This document shows, one piece after another, positions 16,941 through 64,000 of a stretch of 64,000 nucleotides of DNA; positions within the stretch are counted from its first letter, which is position 1, and each line of letters opens with the position of its first letter. The notes under the pieces were generated by a model. That model saw nothing but the letters and a program-made list of their open reading frames with translations, did not search any database and was not told the origin of the DNA. The position numbers and the translations under genes were made by a program. This DNA comes from Streptomyces sp. NBC_01478 (GTDB lineage: Bacteria; Actinomycetota; Actinomycetes; Streptomycetales; Streptomycetaceae), in the NCBI RefSeq assembly GCF_036227225.1, contig NZ_CP109444.1, forward strand, positions 11,017,501 to 11,081,500. The letters are read 5' to 3'.

Positions 16941-17945
16941 TCACGGCGTGGGCACTTCGCCGATCAGGGCGAGCGCGGCCCGGGCGTACGCGGCCCGGCG
17001 CCGATGGCTCACCAGGAAACTCGGCGGTGCGAAATAGCCGACGTCACGAGGCAGCGAACCGGCGCGACGGGCGAGCATGCCCTTCGCGTCGGCCGTCGTC
17101 CCGCACACGGCGATCCCGGTCAGCATCTCGTCGGTGACGGCGGCGGCCATCGCGTCGGTGTCACCGGTGCGGAACGCCTTGCGGAGCTGCGCCACCGGGC
17201 CCTCCCAGCCGTGGTGGGCGACGAACGGGTCGTACGTCTTCACCGTCAGATAGAAGGCGATCATGCGCCGGGCGTCGGCCACGGCGCGTTCGGGAGCGGA
17301 GTCGTCGACCGCCGTGATGACCCAGCCGTGCTCCAGGGGCGGCTCGGTACGGCCCGCGGCGACCGTGCCGCGCTCCACCGACGGTCGTACGACGTCGTTC
17401 CACCAGGAGTGGGTGAACAGCCCGTGCCCGATGACACCGTCGGCGACCCGGCCCGCCGTCGCGGCCATCCGCGTGTTGAACGCGGCGAGCAGGACGGGAA
17501 TGTCGAGCCGGCCGAGCACGGGCGCGCGGACGTCGGCGTCGATCGAGTAGAACTCGCCGTCGTAGTGGACCTTCTCGCCGTTCTCCGCGTGCAGCCAGGC
17601 GCGGACGGCGCCGACGGTCTCCGCGATCCGGTCCACCGCGCGGTCGGCGGGTACGTCGAGCCAGTCGCGGTTGATGCGGAACGCGGCGCTGCCCAGGCCC
17701 AGGAAGAGCCGTCCCGGTGCCTGGGCGTGGAGTTGGCGCAGCGCGGTGGCGTGCGCGTACGGGGTGCGGGCGAAGGCGTAGGCGATGGCGGGCCCCGCGA
17801 GGGCGCGCTCGGAGTTCGCGACGATCTCGGCGAGGGTGAGGTAGGCGTCATGGTCGACGAACTCGCCGGCGCAGAAGGCACCCGCACCGGCCTCCTCGGC
17901 CTCGTGCGCCACCTCACGGCCCGGCCAGGGCATGCCGAATCGCAT
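16941..17945 (-). CDS. LLM-class flavin/F420-dependent oxidoreductase
   Basis: 334 residues, luciferase-like TIM barrel. MRFGMPWPGRE start, GPAIAYAFARTPYAHA, LGLGSAAFRINRDW and a C-terminal VCGTTADAKGMLARRA region are typical of the actinobacterial F420-dependent LLM family. The reaction cannot be read from sequence; relatives reduce or oxidise ketones, alcohols or enoyl groups. Same strand as the enoyl-CoA hydratase upstream, but separated by 63 bases that contain dyad S3, so it may have its own promoter. Confidence 0.78.
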   Translation of the reverse strand: MRFGMPWPGREVAHEAEEAGAGAFCAGEFVDHDAYLTLAEIVANSERALAGPAIAYAFARTPYAHATALRQLHAQAPGRLFLGLGSAAFRINRDWLDVPADRAVDRIAETVGAVRAWLHAENGEKVHYDGEFYSIDADVRAPVLGRLDIPVLLAAFNTRMAATAGRVADGVIGHGLFTHSWWNDVVRPSVERGTVAAGRTEPPLEHGWVITAVDDSAPERAVADARRMIAFYLTVKTYDPFVAHHGWEGPVAQLRKAFRTGDTDAMAAAVTDEMLTGIAVCGTTADAKGMLARRAGSLPRDVGYFAPPSFLVSHRRRAAYARAALALIGEVPTP

Positions 17946-17972: not shown

Positions 17973-17990
17973 AAAAAAGGATACTGTTTT
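17973..17990. promoter_or_regulatory. AGTATACT-family dyad S3
   Basis: AAAAAAGGATACTGTTTT, core AGGATACT at 17978-17985 with AAAA/TTTT flanks. It lies 28 bases upstream of the LLM oxidoreductase start. Confidence 0.6.
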
Positions 17991-18008: not shown

Positions 18009-18782
18009 TCAGCGGAGTGTCCACCGTCCCCGGGGTACCGCCGAGCGGTCCACCTCCGCCTTTCCGATCGGGTTGCCGATCTGGGTGTACGACAGCCCGG
18101 TGCGCAGGGCCTGCGTGCGGGTCGAGTCCAGGGACTCCCAGATCGCGCGCACCGTGCCCTGGATCGCGGCCGGCGGTTTGGCGGCGATGATGCGCGCGAT
18201 CTCGTCCGCCCGGTCCCAGAGTCGATCGCCCGGCAACACCTCGCTGACCAGGCCGATTTGAAGGGCGCGCGCCGCCGACAGGCGTTCGTCCAGGCCGAGC
18301 AGCGCGATCCGCAGGGTCTCGCCGAGCGGGATGCGACGGGCCAGCCCGATCGGTTCGAGCGCGGCGGTGAGTCCGTAGCTGACATGCGGGTCGAAGAAGG
18401 TCGCGTCGTCCGAACAGATCAGGATGTCGGCCTCGTTGAGCCAGTAGAACGCGCCTCCGGCGGTCATCCCGTGCACCGCGCAGACCAGGGGTTTCCACAC
18501 CTGGTTCAGCTTCGGCGACAGGAACTCCCCGGGGTCGGTCTGCGACCAGACGTTGGGGTGCCGGTCGATCCCTTCCTTCACGTCCATGCCGGTGCTGAAC
18601 GCGCGCTCGCCCGAGCCGCGCAACACCATGACGTGCACGTTGTCGTCGGTCCTGACCCGGTCCCAGATCGCGGAGAAGTCGTCCAGCATCTGCTGGTTGA
18701 AGCTGTTCATGGCCTGCGGTCGGTTCAGCGTGATCGTGGCGACATGGTCGGTCACCTCGAACAGGACGGTCTTGAGATCCAT
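18009..18782 (-). CDS. Enoyl-CoA hydratase/isomerase family protein, atypical active site
   Basis: 257-residue crotonase fold. ITLNRPQAMNSFNQQM opens the fold, then GSGERAFSTGMDVKEG, HGMTAGGAFYWLNEADIL for the oxyanion hole, and FFDPHVSYGLTAALEP. The position that usually carries the catalytic Glu (PEV/PEx) reads PHV, so standard hydration is doubtful; the family also includes isomerases, CoA hydrolases and C-C hydrolases such as steroid ring-D EchA20. ATG at 18782 has CGGAG 8 bases upstream; the longer upstream frame would run over dyad S4. Confidence 0.78.
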   Translation of the reverse strand: MDLKTVLFEVTDHVATITLNRPQAMNSFNQQMLDDFSAIWDRVRTDDNVHVMVLRGSGERAFSTGMDVKEGIDRHPNVWSQTDPGEFLSPKLNQVWKPLVCAVHGMTAGGAFYWLNEADILICSDDATFFDPHVSYGLTAALEPIGLARRIPLGETLRIALLGLDERLSAARALQIGLVSEVLPGDRLWDRADEIARIIAAKPPAAIQGTVRAIWESLDSTRTQALRTGLSYTQIGNPIGKAEVDRSAVPRGRWTLR

Positions 18783-18860
18783 CCGGCGACTCCGTTCGTC
18801 GACTCGGTTCGTCAGCTCGGTCTGTTCACCCGGTTCGTCATCTCGACGTGATCGAGGTAA

Positions 18861-18879
18861 GTAGTATACTTTTTTCTGG
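18861..18879. promoter_or_regulatory. AGTATACT-family dyad S4
   Basis: GTAGTATACTTTTTTCTGG, core AGTATACT at 18863-18870. Between the divergent enoyl-CoA hydratase (start 18782) and the operon that begins at 18926. Confidence 0.6.
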
Positions 18880-18925: not shown

Positions 18926-19234
18926 ATGAGGCCACGAGTGGGACAGATGCTCGCCAGCACGGTGGACACCACGGCGGTGATCGTCGTCCGCTGCCCCGAC
19001 AGCGAGGTGGACGTCACCTGCGGCGGCGCCCCCATGACCGAGGGCACCGCACCGGGTGCCGGCACCGGCACCGCCGACCCGGACCGGATGGGCGGGTCCC
19101 TGCTCGGCAAGCGCTACGCAGACGAGGACCTCGGCCTCGAACTCCTCTGCACCAAACAGGGACCGGGCACCCTCGCGGTGAACGGCGTCCCCCTGCCGGT
19201 GAAGAGCGCCAAGCCGCTCCCGGCCTCGGACTGA
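18926..19234 (+). CDS. Small conserved-looking protein, possible LvaB-like partner of the kinase
   Basis: 102 residues, soluble, with Cys23, Cys32 and a later ELLCTK cysteine; RCPDSEVDVTCGGAPM and LGLELLCTKQGPGTL are the most distinctive segments. GGAGG precedes the ATG. No domain is recognised directly. It heads an operon with an acyl-CoA ligase (19-base gap) and an APH-family kinase; in Pseudomonas the levulinate operon encodes a small protein LvaB that is needed by kinase LvaA beside ligase LvaE. Functional equivalence is a hypothesis from context and size. Confidence 0.6.
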   Translation: MRPRVGQMLASTVDTTAVIVVRCPDSEVDVTCGGAPMTEGTAPGAGTGTADPDRMGGSLLGKRYADEDLGLELLCTKQGPGTLAVNGVPLPVKSAKPLPASD

Positions 19235-19253
19235 GAAAGCGGGTGGTGCGCCG

Positions 19254-20768
19254 ATGAACGTGTCGATGATCCTGGACATGGCCGCCGAGGGCTTCGGCGA
19301 CCGGGTCGTGATCGGCCGCGCACAGGACGGGCTCACCCCCGTACGACTGCGCGAACTCGCGGCCGGTGGGGCCGAGTTGGTCCACACGGCCGGCGCCGAC
19401 GCGATCGTGTACCTGGCCACGAACGGACCCGCCTTCGCCGTCGCCCAGTTCGCCGCGGCCCACGCCGGGGTCCCGCTCGTGCCGGTCAACTACCGCCTGG
19501 GCGAAGAGCAGTTGGACGCGCTCCTCGCGAACCACCCGCACGCCCTGGCCATCGCCGCCCCCGGCCAGGACGCGGCACCGCGCCGGGCCGGGCTGCAGGT
19601 CCGCAGCCCGGCCGAGTGGCTCACGGAGGCCGCCGCGCACACCGATGCCGCCACCGAACCGGCACCGGCGCCCGACACCCCCGCCGTACTGATCTACACC
19701 AGCGGAACCACCTCGGCTCCGAAAGGTGTGCTCCTGCGCCACCACAACCTGGTGTCGTATGTGCTCGGCACAGTGGAGTTCGCCGCGGCGGACCCCACCG
19801 AAGCCGCGCTGATGAGTGTGCCGCCGTACCACATAGCCGCCGTCTCCAATGTGCTGACGAACCTCTACGCCGGGCGCCGCACCCTCACCCTCGACCAGTT
19901 CACCCCGGAGAGCTGGCTCGGCCTGGTCAGGGAGCAGCGGATCACGCACGCGATGGTCGTGCCGACGATGCTCGCCCGGATCATGGACACGGCAGGACTG
20001 GACCGTTCCGTGCCCTCGATGCGCTCGCTCGCCTACGGCGGTGCCAGGATGCCGGTGCGCGTGATCGAGACGGCGCTGCGCACCTGGCCGGCGGTGGACT
20101 TCGTCAACGCCTATGGCCTGACGGAGACTTCGTCCACCGTCTCGGTGCTGGGCCCGGCCGAGCACCGGGCGGCGATCGCGAGCGACGACCCCGCGATACG
20201 GGCCCGGCTCGGCTCGGCCGGACTGCCGGTACCGGGCATCGAGATCGAGGTCCGTGACGTCACCGGAGAGCCGCTCGGCGCGGGGGAGACCGGGCAGATC
20301 TGGGTGCGCGGCGAACAGGTCTCGGGGGAGTACGCCGGGCAGGGCTCCGCGGTCGACGAGCGCGGCTTCTTCCACACCCGCGACCGGGGCCGCCTCGACG
20401 CCGACGGCTACCTCCACATCGAGGGCAGGGCCGACGACACGATCATCCGCGGCGCGGAGAACATCGCGCCGGCCGAGATAGAGGATGTTCTGCTGCGGCA
20501 CCCGGACGTGCTCGACGCCGTCGTGGTCGGCGTCCCCGACGAGGAGTGGGGCCAGCGCATCGAGGCCGTCGTCGTACGCCGTGACGGGGCGGAGGTCGAC
20601 GCCGGGGCACTGCGCGCGGCCGTACGCGGCACCCTGCGCGGTTCGAAGACCCCGGACCGCATCACGTACTGGACCGAACTCCCGCGCACGGTGACCGGCA
20701 AACTGGTGCGCCGCGACATCGTGGCGGCACTGACCGCACCCGAGCACGGGACGAAGGGGCAGCCATGA
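19254..20768 (+). CDS. AMP-forming acyl-CoA synthetase/ligase
   Basis: 504-residue ANL superfamily enzyme. The P-loop motif is IYTSGTTSAPKGVLLRH near residue 143, then NAYGLTETSSTVS near 283, HTRDRGRLDADGYL near 375, and the C-terminal hinge and Lys region in TGKLVRRDIV. It would activate a carboxylic acid to its CoA ester. The stop overlaps the next start (ATGA at 20765), so it is coupled to the kinase gene. A second, more divergent ligase is at 29622-31118. Confidence 0.87.
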   Translation: MNVSMILDMAAEGFGDRVVIGRAQDGLTPVRLRELAAGGAELVHTAGADAIVYLATNGPAFAVAQFAAAHAGVPLVPVNYRLGEEQLDALLANHPHALAIAAPGQDAAPRRAGLQVRSPAEWLTEAAAHTDAATEPAPAPDTPAVLIYTSGTTSAPKGVLLRHHNLVSYVLGTVEFAAADPTEAALMSVPPYHIAAVSNVLTNLYAGRRTLTLDQFTPESWLGLVREQRITHAMVVPTMLARIMDTAGLDRSVPSMRSLAYGGARMPVRVIETALRTWPAVDFVNAYGLTETSSTVSVLGPAEHRAAIASDDPAIRARLGSAGLPVPGIEIEVRDVTGEPLGAGETGQIWVRGEQVSGEYAGQGSAVDERGFFHTRDRGRLDADGYLHIEGRADDTIIRGAENIAPAEIEDVLLRHPDVLDAVVVGVPDEEWGQRIEAVVVRRDGAEVDAGALRAAVRGTLRGSKTPDRITYWTELPRTVTGKLVRRDIVAALTAPEHGTKGQP

Positions 20769-21796
20769 GCGTCGCCACCAACAGCCCTGCGCTGCTACGG
20801 GAGTTGACCGACCGCACGGCAGCCGTCGTCGGCGGCTGGACGCCCGGCGCCACCGTCGACGGCGTCGAACCCCTCACCGGCGGCACTTCGAGCCTGACGT
20901 ACGTCGCCGCCCTGTCGGGTGTCCCGGCCGGGTACGAACGTGTCGTCCTCAAGGTGGCACCGCCCGGCCTGCCCCCGGTCCGCAACCGGGACGTGCTGCG
21001 CCAGGCACGCCTCATGTCGGCGCTGGCCGGACAGCCGGGTGTACGCGTACCGACGGTGCTGTTCTGCGACGCGGGCGCGCCCCCGGCCGTCCAGCCCTTC
21101 GTGGCCATGGAGTTGGTGCCGGGGGAGTGCGTCGAACCGGTGCTGCTGCCGCGCGGCACACTCGCCGAGGGGGAGGTGCGGAGGCGTGCCCTGGACGCGG
21201 CTCGCATGCTGGCCGCCCTGCATCGGGTGACGCCCGCGCGTACGGCGCTCGCGGCCGAGCCCGTGGTGACGCTCACCGGGGAGATCGACCGGTGGACCCG
21301 GGCGTTCGCCACCGTCTCCGACGATCTGCGCACCGGCCACGAGGTGGTCGCGGAGCGGCTGCGCGCGACCGTGCCCGCCGCGATGACACCGGTGTTCACC
21401 CACGGCGACTACCGGCTCGGCAACACCTTGTGCGCGGACGGCTCGGTCACGGCGATCATCGACTGGGAGATCTGGTCGCTCGGCGATCCCCGTGTCGACA
21501 TGACGTGGCTGACCTTCTTCACCGACGAGGCCCGCCACCCGGCCGCCGTGTCGGACGAGCCCACCGGCATGCCCGGCAAGGCCGAACTGGTCGACGCCTA
21601 CGAGGAGTTGCGCGGCGAACGGCTGCGGGACCTGCCGTGGTTCGAGGCGCTCACCAAGTACAAGGAGTCCGCGGCGACCGCGCTGTTGATCAAACGGGGC
21701 CGTAAATCAGGGCAGTTGAACGCCATGCATCAGCGGATGCTGCCCGCGCTGCCGGTGCTGCTTGACGAGGCGATGGAGCTGCTGGGAACGGCCTGA
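20765..21796 (+). CDS. APH-family phosphotransferase (LvaA / ACAD10-11 kinase-like)
   Basis: 343 residues. Kinase motifs: ATP-site Lys in VVLKVAPP, Brenner-type HGDYRLGN with catalytic Asp215, and IIDWEIWSLGDPRVDMTWL with metal-binding Asp233. This form, rather than drug-resistance APH enzymes, is typical of the kinase domain fused to acyl-CoA dehydrogenase in ACAD10/11 and of LvaA, which phosphorylate the 4-hydroxyl of 4-hydroxyacyl-CoA. The partner ligase is translationally coupled and an ACAD11-like dehydrogenase lies at 24040-25359. The 3' end overlaps the convergent TetR gene by 67 bases. Confidence 0.82.
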   Translation: MSVATNSPALLRELTDRTAAVVGGWTPGATVDGVEPLTGGTSSLTYVAALSGVPAGYERVVLKVAPPGLPPVRNRDVLRQARLMSALAGQPGVRVPTVLFCDAGAPPAVQPFVAMELVPGECVEPVLLPRGTLAEGEVRRRALDAARMLAALHRVTPARTALAAEPVVTLTGEIDRWTRAFATVSDDLRTGHEVVAERLRATVPAAMTPVFTHGDYRLGNTLCADGSVTAIIDWEIWSLGDPRVDMTWLTFFTDEARHPAAVSDEPTGMPGKAELVDAYEELRGERLRDLPWFEALTKYKESAATALLIKRGRKSGQLNAMHQRMLPALPVLLDEAMELLGTA

Positions 21797-22377
21797 AGCT
21801 GGTGGATGCCCAGATCGAGGGCCGCTTCGAGATGGGTGACCGAACCGGTGGACATCATGATCAGGACGCCGCCCTGGATACCGGCCAGCAGGGCGGCCGC
21901 GGCGCGGTCGGCGTCGAGGCCGGCGGGGATCTCGCGCTGGTCCTGCATGGCCCGGATACCGACGGCGATCTTGCCCTGCCACGAGGCGACGAGCTGTCTG
22001 GTGACGGCCTGCGCGCCGGGCGTGGCCGGGGTGAGCTGGGACATGAGCGCGTTGAGCGGGCACTGCTGCCCCTGCCGGCGATAGCGGTCGACGACCGTGT
22101 CCCGCCAGTCGTGCCAGGCCCGCCACGAGGTGAGCGCGCTGAGGTGGGGCTGCTGGTCGGACAGGACGCGGTCCGCCTCGTGCTGGGCCACGGCGAGCAG
22201 GAGCTCCTCCTTGCCGCCGGGGAAGTAGTGGAAGAGCTGGCTCTTGCTGGTGGCCGTACGGGCGCGGATGTCGTCCAGGGTCGTCTCCGTCACGCCGCGT
22301 GCGCGGAGCTCCGACGCGGCTCCTTCGACGATGCGCTGCCTGGTGGCCGCGCCCTTGGGTGTCAGTCGTGGTGCCAT
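21730..22377 (-). CDS. TetR-family regulator
   Basis: 215 residues. HTH at about 10-55: ATRQRIVEGAASELRARG and LDDIRARTATSKSQLFHYFPGGKEEL. The C-terminal domain is of the LmrA/YxaF-like type with QQCPLNALMSQL. ATG at 22377 (MAPRLTPKG) is chosen; upstream in-frame codons would read through the nested dyad at 22390-22425. Divergent from an SDR gene, which together with itself is its likely target. Its 3' end overlaps the kinase gene on the other strand. Confidence 0.8.
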   Translation of the reverse strand: MAPRLTPKGAATRQRIVEGAASELRARGVTETTLDDIRARTATSKSQLFHYFPGGKEELLLAVAQHEADRVLSDQQPHLSALTSWRAWHDWRDTVVDRYRRQGQQCPLNALMSQLTPATPGAQAVTRQLVASWQGKIAVGIRAMQDQREIPAGLDADRAAAALLAGIQGGVLIMMSTGSVTHLEAALDLGIHQLQAVPSSSIASSSSTGSAGSIR

Positions 22378-22389
22378 GCCACCATCCTG

Positions 22390-22425
22390 CCACTTTCTGG
22401 ACTTGCGGGTCCATTTTCTGAGTGG
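22390..22425. promoter_or_regulatory. Nested dyad between TetR and SDR genes
   Basis: Inner inverted repeat TGGAC-TTGCGG-GTCCA (22398-22413) inside outer arms CCACT (22390-22394) and AGTGG (22421-22425). Placed 13 bases before the TetR start and about 65 before the SDR start: likely operator of this TetR. Confidence 0.6.
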
Positions 22426-22490
22426 CAACTTTGCCGTTCCCAGCCGGTCGGATCAGCTTCCGGCGGTCGGATTCGGAGAGGCACAGCATC

Positions 22491-23246
22491 ATGACCAAGC
22501 GACTTGCCGGGCGGAAAGCCCTGGTCACCGGTTCCACCAACGGTATCGGCGTCGCCATCGCGGTGGCCCTGGCCGCCGAGGGAGCGTTCGTCGTCGTCAG
22601 CGGACGTGACGAGCGTCGCGGCGCCGAGGTGGTGGCCCGCATCGAGAAGGACGGCGGTGCGGCGGCCTTCGTGAAGGCGGATCTGTCCGCGGGCGCCGAG
22701 GTGATCGACCGCTTCGCCACCGACGCGCTCACCGCGGCCGGCGGGCGGATCGACGTGCTCGTCAACAACGCGGCGCTGCTGCTCACGCCCACCCCCACCG
22801 CCGAGGTCGCGCAGGAGACCATCGACGAGGCGCTGGCCGTGAGCGTGCGGTCGGTGTTCCTGCTCACCGGCCTGCTGGTGCCGCCCATGGCCGAGCGCGG
22901 CCAGGGTGCCGTGGTCAACCTCGGCTCCATCGCCGGCCTGCGGGGCAGCGCGCACTCTGCGCTCTACAACATGACCAAGGCGGCAGTGCACTCGCTCACC
23001 ACCTCGTGGGCCGCCGAGTACGGGCCGCACGGCGTCCGGGTCAACACCGTCGCTCCCGGCCCCACCTTGACCGAGAAGGTGGTGTCGATGGAGGAGCGAC
23101 TGGACCCGATCATCGCGCGCATGCCCTCCGGCCGTGCCGGCACCCCGGCCGAGGTGGCCTCCGCCGTCGTGTTCCTCGCGAGCGACGAGGCGTCCCAGAT
23201 CCACGGCGCCACCCTCACCGTCGACGGCGGATTCACGGCGGTGTAG
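22491..23246 (+). CDS. SDR family oxidoreductase
   Basis: 251 residues: cofactor loop GSTNGIGVAIAVAL, NNAALL, catalytic region NLGSIAGL with YNMTK as the YxxxK pair, and GVRVNTVAPGPTLTE. GGAGAGG lies about 9 bases before the ATG at 22491. Lies between the divergent TetR and a convergent SDR. In the LvaABCDE comparison an SDR (LvaD) completes the pathway as a 3-hydroxyacyl-CoA dehydrogenase, so this or the next gene could have that role. Confidence 0.8.
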   Translation: MTKRLAGRKALVTGSTNGIGVAIAVALAAEGAFVVVSGRDERRGAEVVARIEKDGGAAAFVKADLSAGAEVIDRFATDALTAAGGRIDVLVNNAALLLTPTPTAEVAQETIDEALAVSVRSVFLLTGLLVPPMAERGQGAVVNLGSIAGLRGSAHSALYNMTKAAVHSLTTSWAAEYGPHGVRVNTVAPGPTLTEKVVSMEERLDPIIARMPSGRAGTPAEVASAVVFLASDEASQIHGATLTVDGGFTAV

Positions 23247-23263
23247 GACCACGCGGTCGACGG

Positions 23264-24043
23264 TCAGTACAGCCCGCCGTCCACCCGGATCAGCGCTCCC
23301 GTCGTATAGCTCGACGCGTCGCTCGCGAGATACAGCGCGGTACTGACGATCTCCTCGGGCTGTCCCGGACGCCCGATGGCACTGCGCGTCGTCTGCCGCT
23401 TCTCCTCGGCCCAGGACTTGGAGATGTCGGTGAGGAACGGCCCGGCCGAGATCGTGTTGACCCGCACCGTCGGGCCGTACTCCAGGGCGAAGACCGTGGT
23501 CAGGGCGTTGAGCGCGGCCTTGGCGCCGGCGTACGGCCCGAAGCGGGGCTGGGGCATCAGCGCGCCGGACGACGAGACGTTGATGATCGAGCCCCCGTCG
23601 CCCGAGTCGGCCATCCGCTGCCCGACCAACGAGGCGAGCCGGAACGGGCCTTTGAAGTTGACGCCGATCACCTTGTCGAACAACTCCTCGCTGGTCTCGG
23701 CCGAGGAGGGGGCGAGCGGTGACATGCCGGCGTTGTTGACGAGGACGTCGACCTTCCCGAACTCCTCGTAGGCGGCGTCGGCGAGCCGGGCCAGGTCGTC
23801 CCAGTGGCCGACGTGCGCGGCGACCGGCAGGGCCCGGCGACCCAGGGCCCGCACTTCGTCCGCCACGGCCTCGCACGCGTCGAGTTTGCGGCTGGCGATC
23901 ACGATGTCGGCGCCCGCGGTGGCGAAGGCGCGCACCATCGCGAGCCCCAGGCCCCGGCTGCCGCCGGTGACGAGCGCGACCTTGCCGGAGAGGTCGAACA
24001 GGTCGGCCGGAGCAAGGGACTTGGTGTCGCGCTCGCCGCTCAT
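23264..24043 (-). CDS. SDR family oxidoreductase (FabG-like)
   Basis: 259 residues: TGGSRGLGLAMVRAFA, VNNAGMSPLAPS, NVSSSGALMPQPRFGPYAGAKAA with the YxxxK pair, and a C-terminal GALIRVDGGLY. The start ATG at 24043 overlaps the stop of the upstream acyl-CoA dehydrogenase (ATGA), so the two are co-translated. It probably oxidises the hydroxyacyl product made in that pathway. The long open frame extending upstream to 25429 is a shadow of the dehydrogenase gene. Confidence 0.82.
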   Translation of the reverse strand: MSGERDTKSLAPADLFDLSGKVALVTGGSRGLGLAMVRAFATAGADIVIASRKLDACEAVADEVRALGRRALPVAAHVGHWDDLARLADAAYEEFGKVDVLVNNAGMSPLAPSSAETSEELFDKVIGVNFKGPFRLASLVGQRMADSGDGGSIINVSSSGALMPQPRFGPYAGAKAALNALTTVFALEYGPTVRVNTISAGPFLTDISKSWAEEKRQTTRSAIGRPGQPEEIVSTALYLASDASSYTTGALIRVDGGLY

Positions 24044-25359
24044 CCGTCGACCCGGCCGGTGAGGCTGTCGTCCTCGATGACGTGGGCGTACCGCTTGCGG
24101 GCGGCCTCCAGCTTCGGCGGTATGTGCTCGCTGGGGAACAGACCCTCGGCCGGACGGCGGTTCTTCAGGAGCTGCTTGGCGATCGTGGTGCGGTGCACCT
24201 CGGTGGGGCCGTCGGCGAGCGCGAGGTTCGGCGCGGCCATCCACCATTTGGCGAGCGGGAGTTCGTTGGTGGTGCCGAGCGAGCCGTGCAGATGCAGGGC
24301 GCGCTGGATCACGTCGTGCAGCACCTTCGCCGTCTGCACCTTGCACATCGCGATCTGGGTGCGGGCCGCGCCGTGCGGCTGGGTGTCGATGATCCAGGCG
24401 GTGTGCAGCACCAGCAGCCGGAACTGCTGCAACTCCACCCAGGAGTCCGCGATGAACTGCTGCACCGCCTGCTTCTCGGCGAGAAGAGTGCCCTGAGTAC
24501 GCCGGGACACCGCACGCTCGCACATCATGTCGAAGGCGCGCGTGCACTTGCCGACCGTGCGCATCGCGTGATGCACCCGGCCCCCGCCGAGCCGGGCCTG
24601 GGCGACCTTGAAGCCCTCGCCGGGGCCGCCGAGCATGGCGTCGAGCGGGACCCGCACCTGGTCGTAGCGGATGTAGGCGTGGATGCCCTCGTCGAGGGAG
24701 TCGCGCTCGTCCATCGTGCCGACGTTGCGCTTGATCTCGATGCCGGGTGTCTCGGCCGGGACGATGAACATCGACATCCGGGCGTGCGGCGCGGCCTCGG
24801 GGTCGGTGACGGCCATGACGATGAGGAAGGCCGCGTACCGGGCGTTGGAGGAGAACCACTTCTCCCCGTCGATCACCCACTCGTCCCCGTCGCGCCGCGC
24901 CCGGCACACGAACTCCTTGGGATCGGCTCCCGCCTGCGGTTCCGTCATCGAGAAGGTGGAGACGATGTCCCCGTCGAGCAGGGGCTGGAGGTAGCGCGCC
25001 TTCTGTTCCCCGGTGCCGAACATGGCGAGGATCTCGGCGTTGCCGGTGTCCGGGGCCGCGGTGCCGAAGACGGTCGGGGCCCAGTAGGAGCGGCCGAGGA
25101 TCTCGTTGAGGTAGGCGAGCTTCACCTGGCCGTAGCCCGCTCCGCCGAGTTCGGCACCGAGATGGCAGGCCCACAGGCCCTGGGCCCGGACCTGTTCCTG
25201 GAGCGGCCTGAGGATCGCGCGTGCCTTCTCGTTGCGCGTGTCGTACGGGTCGCCGCCGTGCGGGAACAAGAGGTCGAGCGGCTCGACCTCCTCCCGGACG
25301 AAGGCCGCCGCCCAGTCCAGCTTGACCTGGAACTCGGGTTCGATCGAGAAGTCCAGCAT
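24040..25359 (-). CDS. Acyl-CoA dehydrogenase, ACAD10/11 (LvaC)-like
   Basis: 439 residues, longer than the other dehydrogenases here. FSMTEPQAGADPKEF and DGEKWFSSNARYAAFLIVM form the FAD/substrate core; HLHGSLGTTNELPLAKWW and LADGPTEVHRTTIAKQLLKN with the likely base Glu close the domain as in ACAD11-type enzymes. In ACAD10/11 and LvaC this domain acts on the phosphorylated 4-hydroxyacyl-CoA made by an APH kinase; such a kinase is encoded at 20765-21796. Its start is 42 bases from dyad S5. Co-translated with the SDR. Confidence 0.83.
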   Translation of the reverse strand: MLDFSIEPEFQVKLDWAAAFVREEVEPLDLLFPHGGDPYDTRNEKARAILRPLQEQVRAQGLWACHLGAELGGAGYGQVKLAYLNEILGRSYWAPTVFGTAAPDTGNAEILAMFGTGEQKARYLQPLLDGDIVSTFSMTEPQAGADPKEFVCRARRDGDEWVIDGEKWFSSNARYAAFLIVMAVTDPEAAPHARMSMFIVPAETPGIEIKRNVGTMDERDSLDEGIHAYIRYDQVRVPLDAMLGGPGEGFKVAQARLGGGRVHHAMRTVGKCTRAFDMMCERAVSRRTQGTLLAEKQAVQQFIADSWVELQQFRLLVLHTAWIIDTQPHGAARTQIAMCKVQTAKVLHDVIQRALHLHGSLGTTNELPLAKWWMAAPNLALADGPTEVHRTTIAKQLLKNRRPAEGLFPSEHIPPKLEAARKRYAHVIEDDSLTGRVDG

Positions 25360-25395: not shown

Positions 25396-25418
25396 AAAAC
25401 AGTATACTTTTTAGCGAG
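25396..25418. promoter_or_regulatory. AGTATACT-family dyad S5
   Basis: AAAACAGTATACTTTTTAG with core AGTATACT at 25401-25408 and AAAA/TTTT flanks, followed by CGAGG as at S2. Between the divergent ACAD11-like gene and the long operon starting at 25472; the best-conserved member. Confidence 0.65.
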
Positions 25419-25471
25419 GTTCGGTCCATACTCGGAGTGCGTGACGGCAGATGAGTATGAGGAGTTGGTCG

Positions 25472-26704
25472 ATGCGCAGGCCGATGGAGGGCGTACGCGT
25501 TCTCGAAGTAGCCCAGTTCACCTTCGTCCCGGCGGCAGGGGCCGTGCTAGCCGACTGGGGCGCCGATGTGATCAAGATCGAACACGCCGAACGCGGCGAC
25601 GGGCAGAGGGGGTTGGTCAGAGTCCTCGGCTACGACGCCACCAGCAAGGGGTCGTCGTTCTTCCCGATCGTCGAGGGACCCAACCGGGGCAAACGCAGTG
25701 TCGGCCTCGCCCTGGAGAAGCCGTCGGCCCGCAAGGCGTTCGAGGAACTGGTCCGCCGCAGCGACGTGTTCCTCACGAACTTCCTGCCCGAGGCCCGCGC
25801 CAAGCTGCGCATCGACGTCGAGGACATCCGGGCGATCAACCCGGACATCATCTACGTACGGGGCAGCGGCTTCGGCCCGCGCGGCGACGAGGCCACCAAG
25901 GGCGGCTACGACAGCACGGCCTTCTGGGCGCGCGGCGGCAGCGCCGCCGGTGTCACACCGGCGGGCGCGGACCGGATGATCCGGATGCCCGCCGGCGCCT
26001 ACGGCGACTCGATGGGCGGCATGACGATCGCCGGCGGTATCGCCGCCGCCCTCTACTCCCGCGCGACGACCGGCGAACCCTCCGTGGTCGACGTGTCGTT
26101 GCTCGGGGTCGGCGCGTGGGCGACCCAGTTCACGGTCAACATGGCGCTGATGAACGGCGGACCGCTGCCGGTGAACGTCCAGCCCCGGCACGGCTCGCGC
26201 ACCAACCCGCTCATCGGGGCCTATCTGACCTCGGACGGACGCTGGATCGAACTGTCGATGCTCCAACCCGGCCGGTACTGGGCCGAGTTCTGCAAACTCG
26301 CAGGCCGCGGCGAACTCGCCACCGACGAACGCTTCGACAGCACCGAGAAGTTGATGGCCAACGCGGCACAGGCGGCCGGCATCGTCGCCGAACTCGTCGC
26401 GTCCCGCCCCTTCGCGGAGTGGGTCGAGATCCTCTCCCGGGGAGAGGGCCAGTGGTCGGCGGTGCAGAACGCCTGGGAGGTCGGCCAGGACCCCTCGCTG
26501 CGAGCCAACGGACTCATCGCCCCCGTCGTGGACGCCGACGGCGTGGACCGTGAACTCGTCGCCAGTCCCGTGCAGTTCGACGAGACCCCGGCCGACATCA
26601 CGCGGGCACCGCAGTTCGCGGAACACACCGACGAGGTCCTGCGCTCACTCGGTCTCTCCGACGAGGAGCTGATCGCGCTGAAGATCGACGGCGCGGCGAC
26701 ATGA
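25472..26704 (+). CDS. CaiB/BaiF (class III) CoA-transferase family protein
   Basis: 410 residues. EVAQFTFVPAAGAVLADWGADVIKIEH and NRGKRSVGL are hallmark N-terminal segments; Asp179 in GAYGDSMGG matches the catalytic Asp of formyl-CoA transferase. It would move CoA between acids or, if racemase-like, epimerise an acyl-CoA. ATG at 25472 has GAGGAG 7 bases upstream; two earlier in-frame ATGs lack this. First gene of a nine-gene operon to 35604. Confidence 0.83.
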   Translation: MRRPMEGVRVLEVAQFTFVPAAGAVLADWGADVIKIEHAERGDGQRGLVRVLGYDATSKGSSFFPIVEGPNRGKRSVGLALEKPSARKAFEELVRRSDVFLTNFLPEARAKLRIDVEDIRAINPDIIYVRGSGFGPRGDEATKGGYDSTAFWARGGSAAGVTPAGADRMIRMPAGAYGDSMGGMTIAGGIAAALYSRATTGEPSVVDVSLLGVGAWATQFTVNMALMNGGPLPVNVQPRHGSRTNPLIGAYLTSDGRWIELSMLQPGRYWAEFCKLAGRGELATDERFDSTEKLMANAAQAAGIVAELVASRPFAEWVEILSRGEGQWSAVQNAWEVGQDPSLRANGLIAPVVDADGVDRELVASPVQFDETPADITRAPQFAEHTDEVLRSLGLSDEELIALKIDGAAT

Positions 26705-38295: not shown

Positions 38296-38409
38296 CCTGT
38301 GACCCTAAAAAGTGGCCTCAACTTGGTTCCAGGTACCCGAACGGCACGCCTCCGGCCCAGGTGACGAATAGACTGGGGATCCGCAATATCCGCCTCAGAG
38401 GAGTTGGCC

Positions 38410-39882
38410 ATGGCGACTGCCGTCGACCGCGAGCCCGCCGACGGCGAGACCGGTGTCCCGGTCGGCAAGCTGGCCGCGCAGACCGCCCGCCGTATCGAGG
38501 CGACCGTGATCCGCCAGGGCTGGCCGGTGGGCGAGTCGTTGGGCTCGGAGGTGGACCTGCGGGAGCGGCTCGGGGTGAGCCGCGCGGTGCTGCGCGAGGC
38601 GGTACGGCTCGTCGAGCACCACCAGGTGGCCAGGATGCGGCGCGGCCCGAACGGTGGCCTGATCGTCTGCGCACCCGACGCGGGACCGGCCACCCGCGCC
38701 ATGGTGATCTACCTCGAATACGTCGGCACGAGCGTCACCGACCTGCTCCAGGCCCGCCTCCTGCTGGAGCCGATCGCCGCGGGACTGGCCGCCGAGCGCA
38801 TCACCGAGGAGGGCATCGACACCCTCCGGACCACGCTCGATGCCGAACTCGACCACTGGGACGAACCAGGCGTCCACTCCCAGGACCCCCTGCACCCCGT
38901 GCTCGGCCAGTTGTCCGGCAACCCGGTGCTGCACCTGTTCGTCGACGTGCTCACCCGGCTCACCGCCCGCTACGCGCACACCTCCCGCCGTATCTCCAAG
39001 GCCGAGATGCACGCGGCGAAGGACACCTCGCACCGCGCGCACAAAGCCGTCGTCGACGCGGTGATCGCGGACGACGGAGCCCGCGCGCAGACGGAGCTGA
39101 CCGCGCATCTGGAGTCGGTGGCAGGCTGGATCGAGAAGCACCGGGTGCGGCGCGGGCAGCGGATCGCGGGCAACGTCGTCGAGCCCGAACTGGTCGAGGG
39201 CCCGCGGGCCAAGCTCGCCGAGGTGGTCGCGGCGCGCATCCACGACGACATCGCCGCGCGCGGCTGGCAGACCGGCATGGTGCTCGGCTCGGAGGCCGAC
39301 CTGCTGGCCCGCTACTCGATCAGCCGGGCCGTACTCCGGGAAGCCGTACGGCTGTTGGAGTACCACTCGGTGGCCCGGATGCGCCGCGGCCCCGGTGGTG
39401 GCCTGATCGTCACCGAGCCCGAGCCGCAGGCCAGCATCGACACCATGGCGCTGTTCCTGGAGTACCAGGGCGTCACGGCCGACGACCTGCGGATCGTGCG
39501 CAACGCCATCGAACTCGGCATCGTCGCCCGGGTCACCGCGAGAGTCGCGGAGGGCGACAAAGAGGTGACCGAACGGTTGGGCAAGGCCGTGCGCTGGAGC
39601 ACGGAGGGTCCCGCCGACGACCCGCGCAAGGCCGACCTCTTCCACACCGAACTGGCCGCACTCTCCGACAACCCGGTGCTGTCGCTGTTCCTGTCCATCA
39701 TTACCGAGCTGTTCCGCCGCCACGCCTCCGGCCATGACCGGCCGCTGCCCGGCGACACGGCGGCGGACGAGGTCCAGCACGTCCACCAGCGGATTCTCGA
39801 CGCCATCGTCGAGGGTGACGCGGGGGTGGCCCGGCACCGGATGCGCCGCCACCTGGACGCGCTGATCCCTTGGTGGCACTGA
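38410..39882 (+). CDS. Tandem-duplicated GntR/FCD (FadR-type) regulator
   Basis: 490 residues made of two full FadR-type units. Unit 1: winged HTH about 20-88 (LGVSRAVLREAVRL), FCD about 95-240. Unit 2: HTH about 262-336 (YSISRAVLREAVRL), FCD about 345-485. The wings are nearly identical (VARMRRGPNGGLIV and VARMRRGPGGGLIV). A single chain thus carries two DNA-binding and two ligand domains, acting as a built-in dimer. AGAGGAG precedes the ATG at 38410. FCD domains usually sense small organic acids. It lies in the centre of the acyl-CoA region, 87 bases from dyad S6, and is a candidate regulator of the dyad family. Confidence 0.87.
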   Translation: MATAVDREPADGETGVPVGKLAAQTARRIEATVIRQGWPVGESLGSEVDLRERLGVSRAVLREAVRLVEHHQVARMRRGPNGGLIVCAPDAGPATRAMVIYLEYVGTSVTDLLQARLLLEPIAAGLAAERITEEGIDTLRTTLDAELDHWDEPGVHSQDPLHPVLGQLSGNPVLHLFVDVLTRLTARYAHTSRRISKAEMHAAKDTSHRAHKAVVDAVIADDGARAQTELTAHLESVAGWIEKHRVRRGQRIAGNVVEPELVEGPRAKLAEVVAARIHDDIAARGWQTGMVLGSEADLLARYSISRAVLREAVRLLEYHSVARMRRGPGGGLIVTEPEPQASIDTMALFLEYQGVTADDLRIVRNAIELGIVARVTARVAEGDKEVTERLGKAVRWSTEGPADDPRKADLFHTELAALSDNPVLSLFLSIITELFRRHASGHDRPLPGDTAADEVQHVHQRILDAIVEGDAGVARHRMRRHLDALIPWWH

Positions 39883-49531: not shown

Positions 49532-50152
49532 ATGGGGGGCGACGTGGCGAGACCCGCTGAGGGACGGCAACCGGCGGCCCCGATGTCGAGCGGCCAGGCC
49601 GCGCGCCGGGTCCGCATCCTCCGCGCCGCCTCCGAACTCGGCGCCCGCGAGGGGCTCGCCAGCGTGCAGATGCACGACGTGGCCAAGGAGGCCGGCGTCG
49701 CCATCGCCACCCTGTACCGCTACTTCCCGTCCAAGCCGTACCTGTTCATGGCGGTCCTGGAGTGGCACATCGAGCAGTTCCTCGGCGGTCAGACGACCGT
49801 CGCCGAGGAGGGCACGGACGCCGCCGCCGAGATCGCGGAGCTGCTCATCACGCTCAGCGTGAAGCTGCTGGACAGCCCCCTGCTCGCCTCGGCGGTGGCA
49901 CTGTCGTCGTTCACCGAGTACACGAGGATCGTCCCGGCCCGCATGGACCTCGTCGACAGCGCCCTGGGACAGGCCATCCTGCGCCTGCTCTGCGCCGGCG
50001 TCCGCGAGGCCTCCGAGACCGACCGCAGCAGGGCACGCCTGCTCATCTACGGCTGGTGGGGGCTGTTCGTGGCCATGCTCACCGAGGAGCTCTCCACCGC
50101 GGAGGCGGAGACCAACATGCGCCTGGCCGCACGGCTGCTCCTCACGCCGTAG
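49532..50152 (+). CDS. TetR-family regulator, KstR-like HTH
   Basis: 206 residues. HTH about 20-65: RILRAASELGAREG and VQMHDVAKEAGVAIATLYRYFPSKPYLF, close in style to KstR, the repressor of steroid catabolism in mycobacteria. The C-terminal domain is also of similar length. Probably co-transcribed with the HsaD-like gene. I see no KstR-type TAGAAC..GTTCTA operator in the window, so its target is open; the ring-cleavage promoters are candidates. Confidence 0.8.
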   Translation: MGGDVARPAEGRQPAAPMSSGQAARRVRILRAASELGAREGLASVQMHDVAKEAGVAIATLYRYFPSKPYLFMAVLEWHIEQFLGGQTTVAEEGTDAAAEIAELLITLSVKLLDSPLLASAVALSSFTEYTRIVPARMDLVDSALGQAILRLLCAGVREASETDRSRARLLIYGWWGLFVAMLTEELSTAEAETNMRLAARLLLTP

Positions 50153-56044: not shown

Positions 56045-56139
56045 CGTGCACGCCTCTTGGCCCGCGTCCGACGCCGTTGATACGTTGACGACGGCGCCGA
56101 ACTAGAATTGATTTCAGTTTGAGCAGAGAGGCATTGACG

Positions 56140-56964
56140 ATGACGTCTGCCCTTCGCCTGGAACCGCGATACGAGGCCGACCGGCATGCGCTGCCACCGT
56201 CGATGATGGAGCGCGTCACGCTGATCATGGACCTCTTCGAGCGGCCCCAGACACACCTCACCCTCGAAGTGGTGTCCCGCCGGACCCACCTCCCGCGCTC
56301 CACCACCCACCGGATCCTCGACCAACTGGTGCGCCTGGACTGGCTGCACCACACGGTCGCCGGGTACGCGCTGGGGCCGCGCGCGCTCGGTCTCGGCGGG
56401 CGGGAGATCGGGCACAGCACGCTGCGCGCGGCGGCCGCGCCCCAACTCCTCGACCTGGCCGTCCGGACGAAGATGGTCGTCCATCTCGCCGTCCTCGACG
56501 GCCCGGAGATCTACTACCTCGACAAGATCGGCGGCCGGGCCGCGGTCGACATCCCCTCCCGCGTCGGCGGGCGGGCGGTCGCCCACTGCACCGGGCTGGG
56601 GAAGGCGATGCTCGCCTGGCTGAGCCCGGAGGAGATCGACGCCCGGTACCAGCAGTCGATGGAGTGCCGCACCTCGCACAGCATCGGCCGACTCGACCTG
56701 CTCCACCGGGAGTTGAGCACGGTACGCCGACGCAACGGGCTGGCGATCGACCGGGGCGAGTGTTTCCCCGACCTGGGCTGCGTCGGCCTCGCCCTGCGCG
56801 GACCCGACGGTCCGATCGGCGCGATCTCGGTCGTCGGCGACGGACGGGCCCCGCTGGAACTGGTCGCTCCGCTGGTCGTCAACGCCGTACGGGCCGTGTC
56901 CGAGGAGCTGTTCGGGGGCGGGGAGTCGTATCGGCGGGACGTGCCGGAGGCGGTGACCTTGTAA
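56140..56964 (+). CDS. IclR-family regulator
   Basis: 274 residues. Winged HTH about residues 22-80 (ERVTLIMDLFERPQ, LTLEVVSRRTHLPRSTTHRIL) and a C-terminal IclR effector domain with YLDKIGGRAAVDIPSRVGGR, HCTGLGKAMLAWL and DRGECFPDLGCVGLAL. ATG at 56140 has AGAGAGG 8 bases upstream, preferred over TTG 56119. Located just after the hydratase-aldolase operon, whose expression it may control; IclR proteins often govern aromatic catabolic operons. Confidence 0.85.
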   Translation: MTSALRLEPRYEADRHALPPSMMERVTLIMDLFERPQTHLTLEVVSRRTHLPRSTTHRILDQLVRLDWLHHTVAGYALGPRALGLGGREIGHSTLRAAAAPQLLDLAVRTKMVVHLAVLDGPEIYYLDKIGGRAAVDIPSRVGGRAVAHCTGLGKAMLAWLSPEEIDARYQQSMECRTSHSIGRLDLLHRELSTVRRRNGLAIDRGECFPDLGCVGLALRGPDGPIGAISVVGDGRAPLELVAPLVVNAVRAVSEELFGGGESYRRDVPEAVTL

Positions 56965-59468: not shown

Positions 59469-60767
59469 TCAGGACTGCACGGCGAGTTGGAAGGCCTGCG
59501 CGGTGGAGCCGTCGCAGGTCCGCTGGGTGAGCTGGACACTGTTGGTCGCCGCCGTGGCGGCGGTCAGGCACTTGCCGCTGTGCCGGGCGACGAAGTGGTA
59601 GCGCCCGCTCGTCTCACGCACCGGCTGCCACTGCTGGTTCGTGCCGCCGGAGTAGGCCCACAGTTGCAGTGGCGCGTTGTCCGCCGTCGAGCGGTCGGTC
59701 ACGTCGATGACCTGCGCCGGGTTGCCGCGCGCGGTGATCTCCATGTACCCGCTGTCGGTGGAGCGGAACTGGTACTGCTGTGCCGTGGTGCCGTTGCAGG
59801 CGTACTGCTGGATCGCCGTCCCGTTGGCCGTGGCCGCCGAACGGGCGTCCACACACGTGCCGTTGCCGCCGTTCTGCACGGAGTACCAGGCGGTCTCGGA
59901 GATCGGGGTGTCCGTCGGCGGCGTCGAAGTGTCGCCCCCGCCCAGCCACTTGAGCCCGTTCAGCAGGAACTGGTTCTGGGTGGCGCTCGCGAACGTCGAC
60001 GACAGCCGCGTGTTGGTCGTGTAGTTCATCGCGTTGTGACCGAAGTTCGCGTACAGCATCTTGTACTTCGTGTTGGTCCACAGGATCGGGTAATACCCGC
60101 TGTACCAGGACTGGTTGGGATCCGTGCCGACCGGGAAGCTGCTCGGGTCGATCGACGCCAGGATCTTGATGTCCGGGTTCTGCCGCAGATCGTTGGACCA
60201 GCTGTACCACTCGCTGACCGACGAGGTGAACGTGGCCGGCAGGGCGGCGGTGGGCGGGATCGTGTGGTCCTCCACCTTCAGGGTCACCGCGGTCGGACCC
60301 CAGGTGTTGGACACGAAGTTCCCCGAGCCGAGGAACGTGTTGTGGTACCAGGACCAGCTCGCCGCGTTCGTCGTGAAGGCGGAGACATGGAAGCCCATGA
60401 AGCCGCCGCCACCCCTCATGTACGCCTCGAAACCGGTGCGTTGGGCGGCGGTCTGCGGCAGGTCGTCGAGGAACAGGACGACTTGGTACGCGTTGACCCC
60501 GCCGTTGGCGAGCAGGTCCCAGTTGGTGCTGGCCGTGTAGGTGTAGCCGTTCGCCGCGGCCTGCTGCGGGAACCAGACGTTCGCCTCCTTGTCGAAGTCG
60601 ATGTGCGCCGCGTCGTAGGTGCCGCTGTAGAGCGCGAGGATCTTGAACGGCGTCGCCGCGGTACTCGCCTGGGCCGCGGGCGGTACGGCCGCGAGGCCCA
60701 GCAGAGTCGCCAGCAGGAGGAGGACCCGCAGGAGCGCGCGAGTGGAACCGGATCTGATGGTGTTCAT
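59469..60767 (-). CDS. Secreted ThuA-like protein with C-terminal RICIN domain
   Basis: 432 residues. Sec signal peptide ending PPAAQAS near residue 35. ThuA-like glutamine-amidotransferase fold at about 40-275 (FKILALYSGTYDAAHIDFDKE, FLDDLPQTAAQRTGFEAYMRG, GGGFMGFHVSAF, ILWTNTKYKMLYANFGHNAMNY), then a ricin-type beta-trefoil (CVDARSAATANGTAIQQYACN, QLWAYSGGTNQQWQPV, CLTAATAAT). Probably an extracellular carbohydrate-binding or sugar-modifying enzyme; ThuA domains occur in trehalose use and glycoside degradation. Follows the next upstream gene by 27 bases. Confidence 0.8.
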   Translation of the reverse strand: MNTIRSGSTRALLRVLLLLATLLGLAAVPPAAQASTAATPFKILALYSGTYDAAHIDFDKEANVWFPQQAAANGYTYTASTNWDLLANGGVNAYQVVLFLDDLPQTAAQRTGFEAYMRGGGGFMGFHVSAFTTNAASWSWYHNTFLGSGNFVSNTWGPTAVTLKVEDHTIPPTAALPATFTSSVSEWYSWSNDLRQNPDIKILASIDPSSFPVGTDPNQSWYSGYYPILWTNTKYKMLYANFGHNAMNYTTNTRLSSTFASATQNQFLLNGLKWLGGGDTSTPPTDTPISETAWYSVQNGGNGTCVDARSAATANGTAIQQYACNGTTAQQYQFRSTDSGYMEITARGNPAQVIDVTDRSTADNAPLQLWAYSGGTNQQWQPVRETSGRYHFVARHSGKCLTAATAATNSVQLTQRTCDGSTAQAFQLAVQS

Positions 60768-60794
60768 GTAGGTGATCGATCCTTTCCGTGCGGT

Positions 60795-63017: not shown

Positions 63018-63069
63018 GGATTCTCCTGTGGTGATGGGGGGTTGGGGAGGAAAGTCGGAGGGGCGTCCG

Positions 63070-64000
63070 TCAGCCGGTGTACTGGGCGAAGATGCTGGTG
63101 AACTGCCAGTTGCTCTGGCTCACGCCCGAGCAGGTGTCGTCGTTCGGGTAGGCGCCCGGGCAGGGCCGGTCACGGTTGGCCGACCAGAACGTCAGCCGCG
63201 CGAGGTGGTGCGCCTGCGCGTAGCCGAGGATGGTCTGGAAGTCGGCGGTGGTGACGGTCTCGTTGTTGTCGGTGATGCCGTTCATCGAGGAGATGCCCAT
63301 GTCCCGGTAGGCCGCGTCGTCGCTGTAGCCGTACGCGTTCTTCAGCGCGGTCTTGAGACCCTCGGCCGCCCGCTGGGTGAGCGTGCCCATGTTCTGGCCC
63401 GCGCCGCCGAAGTCGAACGGCATGATCGTCCAGGCGTCCACGGTCAGCCCGGAGGAGGCGGCCCGGTTGATGAGACTCGTGTCGGGACCGCTCTGCCCGG
63501 TGCCGATGGTGACGTACACCTTGATGCCCGGGTTGTTGGCCTTGACGGTCTTGAGCGCGTCCACGGTCCGCTGCTGCACGGTCCCGTTGCTGTACGCGTC
63601 GGCCTCGATGTCGATGTCGATGGCCTTCAGCGAGTAGGCGCTGATGACCTTCTGGTACGCCGCCGCCAGTTCGCCCGCGCTGGAGCATGAGCTCTCCAGC
63701 TTGTTGCCGCTGTAGCCGCCGAAGGACGGGACGACGTCACCGCCGTTGGCGCGCACGGTGTTGATGGTCGACTGGTCGACTCCGCCGGTCAGCGCCCGGC
63801 CGCCGTCCCACTGCGGGTTGCAGTAGCCGTTGCTCAGGACGAACGCGAGCGTGAACCACTTCACGCCGGTCGCGTTCATGACAGTCGTAGGGCTGGGCGG
63901 GTTCCCCCAGCCGTTGTAGAGGTACGGGGCGACGGCCATCGGCGCGGTCGTGGGCGGGGTCGTGCCGCCGGCGGCGGGGGCCGTCCACTTCTGGTTGGCG
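63070..64000 (-). CDS. GH18 chitinase-like protein (N-terminal part beyond window)
   Basis: About 310 C-terminal residues visible. A Pro/Thr linker (APAAGGTTPPTTAPM) follows a sequence ending ANQKWT, which looks like the end of a RICIN or other carbohydrate-binding domain. The catalytic domain begins near VAPYLYNGWG; VVPSFGGYSG and the GH18 signature region KAIDIDIEAD (DxxDxDxE variant with the probable acid Glu) are present, and IMPFDFGG and LTFWSANRDRPC follow. It resembles the Streptomyces chitinase group that includes ChiC/ChiD-like GH18 enzymes. Secretion is inferred. Confidence 0.83.
   Translation of the reverse strand, partial: ANQKWTAPAAGGTTPPTTAPMAVAPYLYNGWGNPPSPTTVMNATGVKWFTLAFVLSNGYCNPQWDGGRALTGGVDQSTINTVRANGGDVVPSFGGYSGNKLESSCSSAGELAAAYQKVISAYSLKAIDIDIEADAYSNGTVQQRTVDALKTVKANNPGIKVYVTIGTGQSGPDTSLINRAASSGLTVDAWTIMPFDFGGAGQNMGTLTQRAAEGLKTALKNAYGYSDDAAYRDMGISSMNGITDNNETVTTADFQTILGYAQAHHLARLTFWSANRDRPCPGAYPNDDTCSGVSQSNWQFTSIFAQYTG

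Follow-up and report, generated by a model that had tools for sequence, protein, structure and literature searches.

In mammals, ACAD10 and ACAD11 consist of a 4-hydroxyacyl-CoA kinase fused to a 4-phosphoacyl-CoA lyase, as described in PMC12440821 and PMC11342911. In Pseudomonas, the LvaABCDE proteins for levulinate, read here on plasmid p12939-PER (L302; L numbers denote the loci fetched for comparison), include a kinase (LvaA), a lyase (LvaC), a short-chain dehydrogenase/reductase (SDR; LvaD), a ligase (LvaE) and the small protein LvaB. Streptomyces sp. NBC_01478 harbours genes related to both systems in the stretch of 64,000 nucleotides analysed here (positions 11,017,501-11,081,500 of its one-contig 12.1-Mb genome), hereafter the window. 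Similar to the Lva system, positions 18926-25359 encode candidates for a kinase, a lyase, an SDR and an acyl-CoA ligase, but gene order and surrounding cluster differ. Unlike ACAD10/11, kinase and lyase are split over two operons, which share an operator-like site. We consider it probable, at roughly 0.68, that these genes encode the ACAD10/11 (LvaA/LvaC) pathway in a split and co-regulated form, in which the kinase comes from a separate clade (clade II) and a protein of 102 amino acids as accessory to the ligase. An earlier sequence-only reading had proposed a split actinobacterial module of the ACAD10/11-Lva type in which the small protein plays the part of LvaB. Kinase and lyase with their shared operator-like site, SDR and ligase agree with that proposal; the assignment of the LvaB part to the small protein is not supported.

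Lyase candidate

The acyl-CoA dehydrogenase (ACAD) at positions 24040-25359, on the minus strand, is a candidate ACAD10/11-type 4-phosphoacyl-CoA lyase. In the PDB, it matches 4hr3 best (5e-83) and then, as the next closest solved relative, ACAD11 (8v3u, 3e-78), whereas the first other acyl-CoA dehydrogenase scores 2e-44. According to PMC12440821, R626, H634 and R637 of ACAD11 contact the 4-phosphate, R631 is general in the family, and D753 is the base. In the PDB alignment, residues R256, R261, H264, R267 and D383 of the window protein correspond to ACAD11 R626, R631, H634, R637 and D753, so that all five active-site residues are shared; the PDB chain index lies one below the numbering of that paper, judged from D753N in 8v3v.

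A script searched 155 ACAD-like frames from L016-L018, L101-L200 and the window, a collection chosen for such genes, and detected this RRHRD set in 65. Among the six ACAD frames of the window, only 24040-25359 carries the set, and the other five, which served as negative controls, lack it. LvaC from p12939-PER, the positive control, and its Stutzerimonas counterpart possess it. By this residue signature, the window dehydrogenase is a predicted member of the ACAD10/11-LvaC lyase subgroup, and its earlier description as ACAD11-like is borne out by both the PDB ranking and the full ACAD11/LvaC residue set. A variant was seen in L174, where a lyase-like frame near position 573 reads RRHWD (Trp at R637) and lies near a kinase fragment, with a small-protein gene about 9 kb further on.

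Kinase candidate

The gene at positions 20765-21796 (plus strand) encodes an APH-family (PF01636) acyl-CoA kinase candidate of 343 amino acids, which keeps the motifs HGDYRLGN and DWEIWSLGD, starting at residues 213 and 233, respectively. A careful tree (IQ-TREE) was built from 88 kinases, after dropping four of 82 hits with fewer than 230 matched residues and two outlying hits. Three clades were obtained, each as one side of a branch. Clade I (31 rows, support 97/80) includes the ACAD11 kinase, clade II (27 rows, 100/100) includes the window kinase, and clade III (27 rows, 100/99) contains LvaA and the kinases linked to DUF6285, the neighbours tested for this link not including that of kin_L299. 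Because motif and partner had been used to name the kinase groups in the first place, the presence of Gln (at the alphaC Glu position of ACAD11) and DWEIW in all of clade II is true by definition; the test is that clade II forms one clade. The program warned that the long stems of clades II and III meet, which leaves the branching order of the three clades unsettled.

On this tree the window kinase falls neither in the ACAD11 clade I nor in the LvaA clade III, and is shown as a third lineage, distinct from both. LvaA has the DUF6285 gene (LvaB) adjoining, and none adjoins the window kinase. The structures 9fsg and Rv3168 are outside clades I-III, and the grouped rows nearest to them are in clade I. 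A literature search found nothing on kinase clade II or on the small protein. The genome of strain NBC_01478 also possesses a second kinase-lyase pair, in L179 near position 1,120,000, with a kinase of group I.

Operator-like sites and proposed regulon

Three operator-like sites were found in the window. Site 2 (18859-18874), between the genes of an enoyl-CoA hydratase/isomerase (ECHa) and the small protein, contains an exact AGTATACTTTTT at 18863-18874. Site 3 (25397-25412), between the lyase gene and the CoA-transferase gene CaiB1, contains an exact AGTATACTTTTT at 25401-25412, and its 13-nt arms are 85% complementary. Site 1 (17974-17989), before the gene of an LLM-class oxidoreductase, is degenerate, differing from AGTATACTTTTT by 1 mismatch on one strand and by 2 on the other. 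With up to 2 mismatches, AGTATACTTTTT has 6 matches in the window against 0.07 expected, a number reached in none of 100 shuffles; since AGTATACTTTTT is palindromic, the six matches are three places. In the whole genome, up to 1 mismatch gave 4 matches, located only at sites 1-3, and the reversed control gave 0.

The exact ten-base core is present before both operons in seven of 18 loci (L016, L205, L206, L207, L208, L210 and L221), the 11 remaining loci including L201, which has no module, as well as L209, L217 and L223. Ten of the 302 fetched loci contain the exact core: these seven, two loci of the NBC_01478 genome itself, and Nocardia L230, where a single copy occurs. The shared site would link the operons of kinase and lyase. 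A private regulon is proposed, which may comprise the genes of the LLM oxidoreductase, the hydratase, the small protein, the ligase, the kinase, an SDR adjoining the lyase (SDR2), the lyase and CaiB1. No operator-like site was detected before the gene of the other SDR (SDR1). The TetR regulator encoded at 21733 is unlikely to be the regulator of the site, because relatives without that TetR retain the site. Candidates elsewhere in the window are the products of an FCD/GntR gene (38404-39882), another TetR gene (49532-50152) and an IclR-like gene (56119-56964).

Kinase-lyase pairing in other genomes

In a survey of 296 genomes drawn from the class, the window's own included, with only the first few candidates per genome scored, relatives of the kinase (E <= 1e-30) were found in 24 genomes and relatives of the lyase (E <= 1e-60) in 204. 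Leaving out the genome of strain NBC_01478, 24 kinase places were found, and at 17 of them a signature lyase, defined as RRHRD or RRYRD, lies within 3.5 kb.

A quick lyase tree of 73 rows, in which 18 lyases without a nearby kinase and two with unclassified ones were left uncounted, showed that the 20 lyases with clade-II partners need at least three label changes. Therefore, partners were swapped more than once, and such repeated exchange argues for a shared reaction. A second kinase-ACAD pairing was observed apart from this one. In DUF6285-centred stretches (L101, L103-L108, L111-L120), an ACAD without the lyase set lies near the kinase in 17 of 20 stretches; the tag FRQSE, seen 17 times among the ACAD frames, presumably belongs to these.

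Several observations weigh against a common pathway of kinase and lyase, or against its close likeness to the ACAD11 and Lva systems. Seven of the 24 kinase places are without a signature lyase within 3.5 kb, namely L142 (lyase 10 kb off), L143, L144, L145 (11 kb), L155, L158 and L164 (contig end), and in Rhodococcus BH4 the lyase lies about 50 kb from the kinase on the same plasmid. Forty lyase-centred stretches (L121-L140, L181-L200) were picked by hand among the matches listed, excluding those already fetched with a kinase; 27 of these hold an APH kinase: 26 belong to clade I, the remaining one is an unclassified fragment, and clade II is not represented. One clade-II sub-branch (L159-L163) stands beside RRYRD lyases, which have Tyr for the phosphate-contact H634. 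The three label changes could, according to the program note, equal one gain and two losses, or three gains. Three loci that hold the module, Streptomyces L209 and the two Nocardia loci L217 and L223, do not have the exact core. The window kinase and lyase are 30% and 33% identical to LvaA (over 224 aa) and LvaC (over 402 aa), respectively. Besides belonging to another clade than the ACAD11 kinase, the window kinase has Gln at the position of the alphaC Glu of ACAD11 and Gly at the position of R176, a residue placed on CoA by modelling in PMC12440821. Its best solved relatives by phmmer are 9fsg (5e-13) and Rv3168 (3ats, 2e-10), before 3dxp and the ACAD11 kinase (1e-7).

The unpaired places and the Rv3168-type nearest structures, together with the wide use of the APH fold, would suit a kinase unrelated to the lyase that merely shares its neighbourhood and acts, for example, on an antibiotic or another metabolite. 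We consider this very improbable, given the pairing at the other 17 places and an operator-like site that kinase and lyase operons have in common and that occurs nowhere else in the genome. The kinase also scores far under the cut-offs of the resistance-kinase models in NCBIfam (34.9 bits against 205 for APH(3'), and at most 17.5 bits for the macrolide models), so that by curated cut-offs it is not a drug-resistance enzyme.

Small protein and ligase

The small protein (102 aa; 18926-19234, plus strand) matches no Pfam and no NCBIfam family. Downstream, the gene at 19254-20768 (plus strand) encodes an AMP-binding acyl-CoA ligase of 504 amino acids (PF00501/PF13193). The AlphaFold2 model of the small protein (pLDDT 91.5) shows two repeats. 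Residues 3-40 of the model superpose on all 36 residues of desulforedoxin 1DXG at 1.1-1.3 A (TMt 0.85), but with a weak E-value; in the model, the second half has three strands ordered as in the first. The Desulfoferrodoxin_N Pfam family matched one of 77 members of the small-protein family (E 0.042), and therefore the assignment of the fold stands on the model and the weakly scored structural match. Similar to 1DXG in its first repeat, the protein differs from it in lacking the four-cysteine metal site. With the cysteine positions aligned by eye against the desulforedoxin sequence, all 77 members have Gly at position 33, where the second Cys of the CC pair would probably stand, and only three of 77 have Cys at position 11. 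Thus, a two-repeat desulforedoxin-like fold without the Cys4 site is predicted. A similarity to subtilisin inhibitor (E 0.04) was gone from the family-profile search. A shorter relative at L178 9901-10179, which matches the second half only, carries CxxC and further cysteines and is perhaps a metal-binding form.

In 59 of 80 small-protein loci, a ligase gene of the same strand lies no more than 300 bp away. A kinase occurs in 15 of 80, counted over the whole fetched locus, and some of the 65 kinase-free loci end early at contig ends. Both gene orders of the small-ligase pair occur, and no fused ligase-small open reading frames (ORFs) were found in the two sets inspected. In a tree of 116 ligases, small-protein adjacency needs 7 changes, compared with 33.5 in shuffles; therefore, small-linked ligases are strongly clustered, yet a single clade of them was not found. 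The linkage is with the ligase rather than with the kinase, and we infer that the small protein is an accessory to the ligase. Small-protein paralogues without a ligase alongside were seen in L176 (own genome) and L177 (same genus).

The repeats would also suit a rubredoxin- or desulforedoxin-type electron carrier for the P450s or a monooxygenase of the cluster. This role is very unlikely in view of the cysteine positions just described and of the ligase as the usual neighbour.

The role of LvaB, as proposed by the sequence-only reading, is not supported. LvaB, annotated on p12939-PER with 118 amino acids, belongs to DUF6285 (PF19802; 85 bits against a cut-off of 28.1), and no DUF6285 was found in the genome of strain NBC_01478. 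The suggested profile search gave no match between the small protein and LvaB, with an hhalign probability of 0.1% and hidden Markov model scores of at most 0.5 bits between the small-family and DUF6285 profiles. A diverged LvaB acting as kinase subunit might be favoured by the similar size (102 and 118 aa) and by the gene string, which holds both small protein and kinase in the window, in the Streptomyces loci and in part of the Nocardia loci. We regard it as extremely unlikely, because the two proteins are unrelated in sequence and profile, the predicted fold is desulforedoxin-like, the kinase is missing from the fetched stretch in most small-protein loci, and, in the classified set, no DUF6285 gene lies within 3.5 kb of a clade I or II kinase. 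In L204 (Thermus thermophilus HB8 pTT27) and L300 (a Stutzerimonas stutzeri plasmid), Lva-like operons carry a histidine phosphatase gene beside DUF6285. For Pseudomonas citronellolis, PMC6692424 describes a phosphatase gene near the LvaA homologue, with lvaB absent there.

Gene organisation of the module

The six genes named in the earlier reading, encoding the 102-aa ORF, the ligase, the APH kinase, two SDRs and the dehydrogenase, were all recovered at their coordinates. The inventory is nonetheless one gene short, since a TetR regulator (21733-22377, minus strand; PF00440, PF16925) lies between kinase and SDR1, which makes seven genes. SDR1 (22491-23246, plus strand; PF13561), whose start was chosen by us within the ORF 22422-23246, is not part of the core. 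SDR2 (23264-24043, minus strand; PF13561) is a core gene and LvaD-like by position. The SDR2 and lyase genes lie on one strand, have 4 bases in common and stay side by side in near relatives. SDR2 is 39% identical to LvaD over 247 aa and the ligase 29% identical to LvaE over 508 aa, levels which are usual for large superfamilies.

Small protein, ligase and kinase are encoded on the plus strand, TetR on the minus, SDR1 on the plus, and SDR2 and the lyase on the minus strand, and this pattern rules out one operon of six genes. Of the named relatives of the module, those closest to it are from Streptomyces. Among the related clusters compared, matches to TetR and SDR1 at 40% identity or more were found only in L205 and L206, and L016, L207-L210, L217, L221 and L223 keep the flanking genes without such a match. 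TetR and SDR1 (21733-23246) therefore have the appearance of a segment inserted between the kinase and SDR2 genes.

Upstream and divergent from the small-protein gene, ECHa (18009-18782, minus strand; PF00378) adjoins it also in the Streptomyces loci and in Nocardia L217. It is followed by the LLM-class (F420-type) oxidoreductase (16941-17945, minus strand; Bac_luciferase PF00296), with site 1 just upstream of the latter, whose TIGR03617 score of 155 bits is below the cut-off of 278. On the other side, site 3 separates the lyase operon from the divergent gene of a CaiB/BaiF CoA-transferase, CaiB1 (25451-26704, plus strand; PF02515). Frames whose N-termini look signal-like by eye, and a change in GC skew, were observed where the window ends on the right (59469-63939).

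Surrounding cluster and possible substrates

The surrounding cluster is, by its gene content, steroid-like. Similar to 9,10-seco steroid catabolism, the window encodes proteins related to HsaA (379 bits, cut-off 450), HsaC (287-288 bits, cut-off 450, the next best in the genome scoring 52 bits), HsaD (267 bits, cut-off 400) and KstD (485 bits, cut-off 789), and a 2-oxopent-4-enoate-type hydratase (283 bits, cut-off 350). Acetaldehyde dehydrogenase and 4-hydroxy-2-oxovalerate aldolase both score above cut-off, and two mycofactocin-coupled SDRs and two P450s are also present. In contrast to that pathway, the Hsa- and KstD-like proteins are below the equivalog cut-offs, and all ten CoA_trans (IpdAB-type) places of the genome are located outside the window. 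The canonical steroid 9,10-seco pathway was rejected because the HsaA-, HsaC- and HsaD-like proteins score too low and the window encodes no IpdAB-type protein. The same cluster is plasmid-borne in Streptomyces sp. NBC_00080.

The substrate may be one that yields a 4-hydroxy acid or lactone. A steroid-like polycycle would fit if its breakdown left a gamma-lactone side chain or an acid with a gamma-oxo or gamma-hydroxy group, with none singled out; cardenolides, for example, have a gamma-lactone side chain. It counts against the proposed pathway that the origin of a gamma-hydroxy intermediate is not evident from the genes of the cluster. HIP-type intermediates bear a 5-oxo/hydroxy group. Kinase and lyase might thus cooperate on a hydroxyl other than that at C4, such as the 5-hydroxyl of a HIP-type steroid-ring acid, which would suit the steroid-like cluster and the departure of the kinase from ACAD11 at the CoA-contact position. 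However, the lyase retains every residue by which the ACAD11 model positions the 4-phosphate over FAD, and we consider such a substrate possible but unlikely.

Proposed pathway and its meaning

For the split ACAD10/11 pathway, the following steps are suggested. The ligase would convert a carboxylic acid from ring cleavage to its acyl-CoA. SDR2, by analogy with LvaD, would reduce the carbonyl at the gamma-carbon, if present. The clade-II kinase would phosphorylate the resulting 4-hydroxyacyl-CoA. The ACAD11-type enzyme with FAD, whose phosphate-contact residue set is complete, would remove the phosphate to give a 2-enoyl-CoA, which would enter beta-oxidation via the hydratase and thiolases of the cluster.

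Only tentatively, and as a picture less likely than not to hold in full, we suggest that bacteria recruited a third lineage of APH-type kinases, with partners repeatedly exchanged, for the removal of gamma-hydroxyl groups from ring-derived, steroid-like CoA thioesters. The same tentative picture includes a branch of ligases with a dedicated partner, a two-repeat desulforedoxin-like protein without metal site. MbtH proteins serve adenylation domains, and the partner might resemble them in role. The small protein, without Pfam or NCBIfam match, now has a predicted fold and, in the ligase, a candidate partner. The operator-like site, unique in the genome, marks the limits of the module and reduces it to a short gene list. 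The kinase-plus-lyase route for 4-hydroxy acids is a recent discovery, from levulinate in Pseudomonas and from mammalian ACAD10/11. Since the same type of lyase occurs here with a different kinase lineage, in clusters resembling those for polycycle breakdown, the route may reach well beyond simple 4-hydroxy acids.

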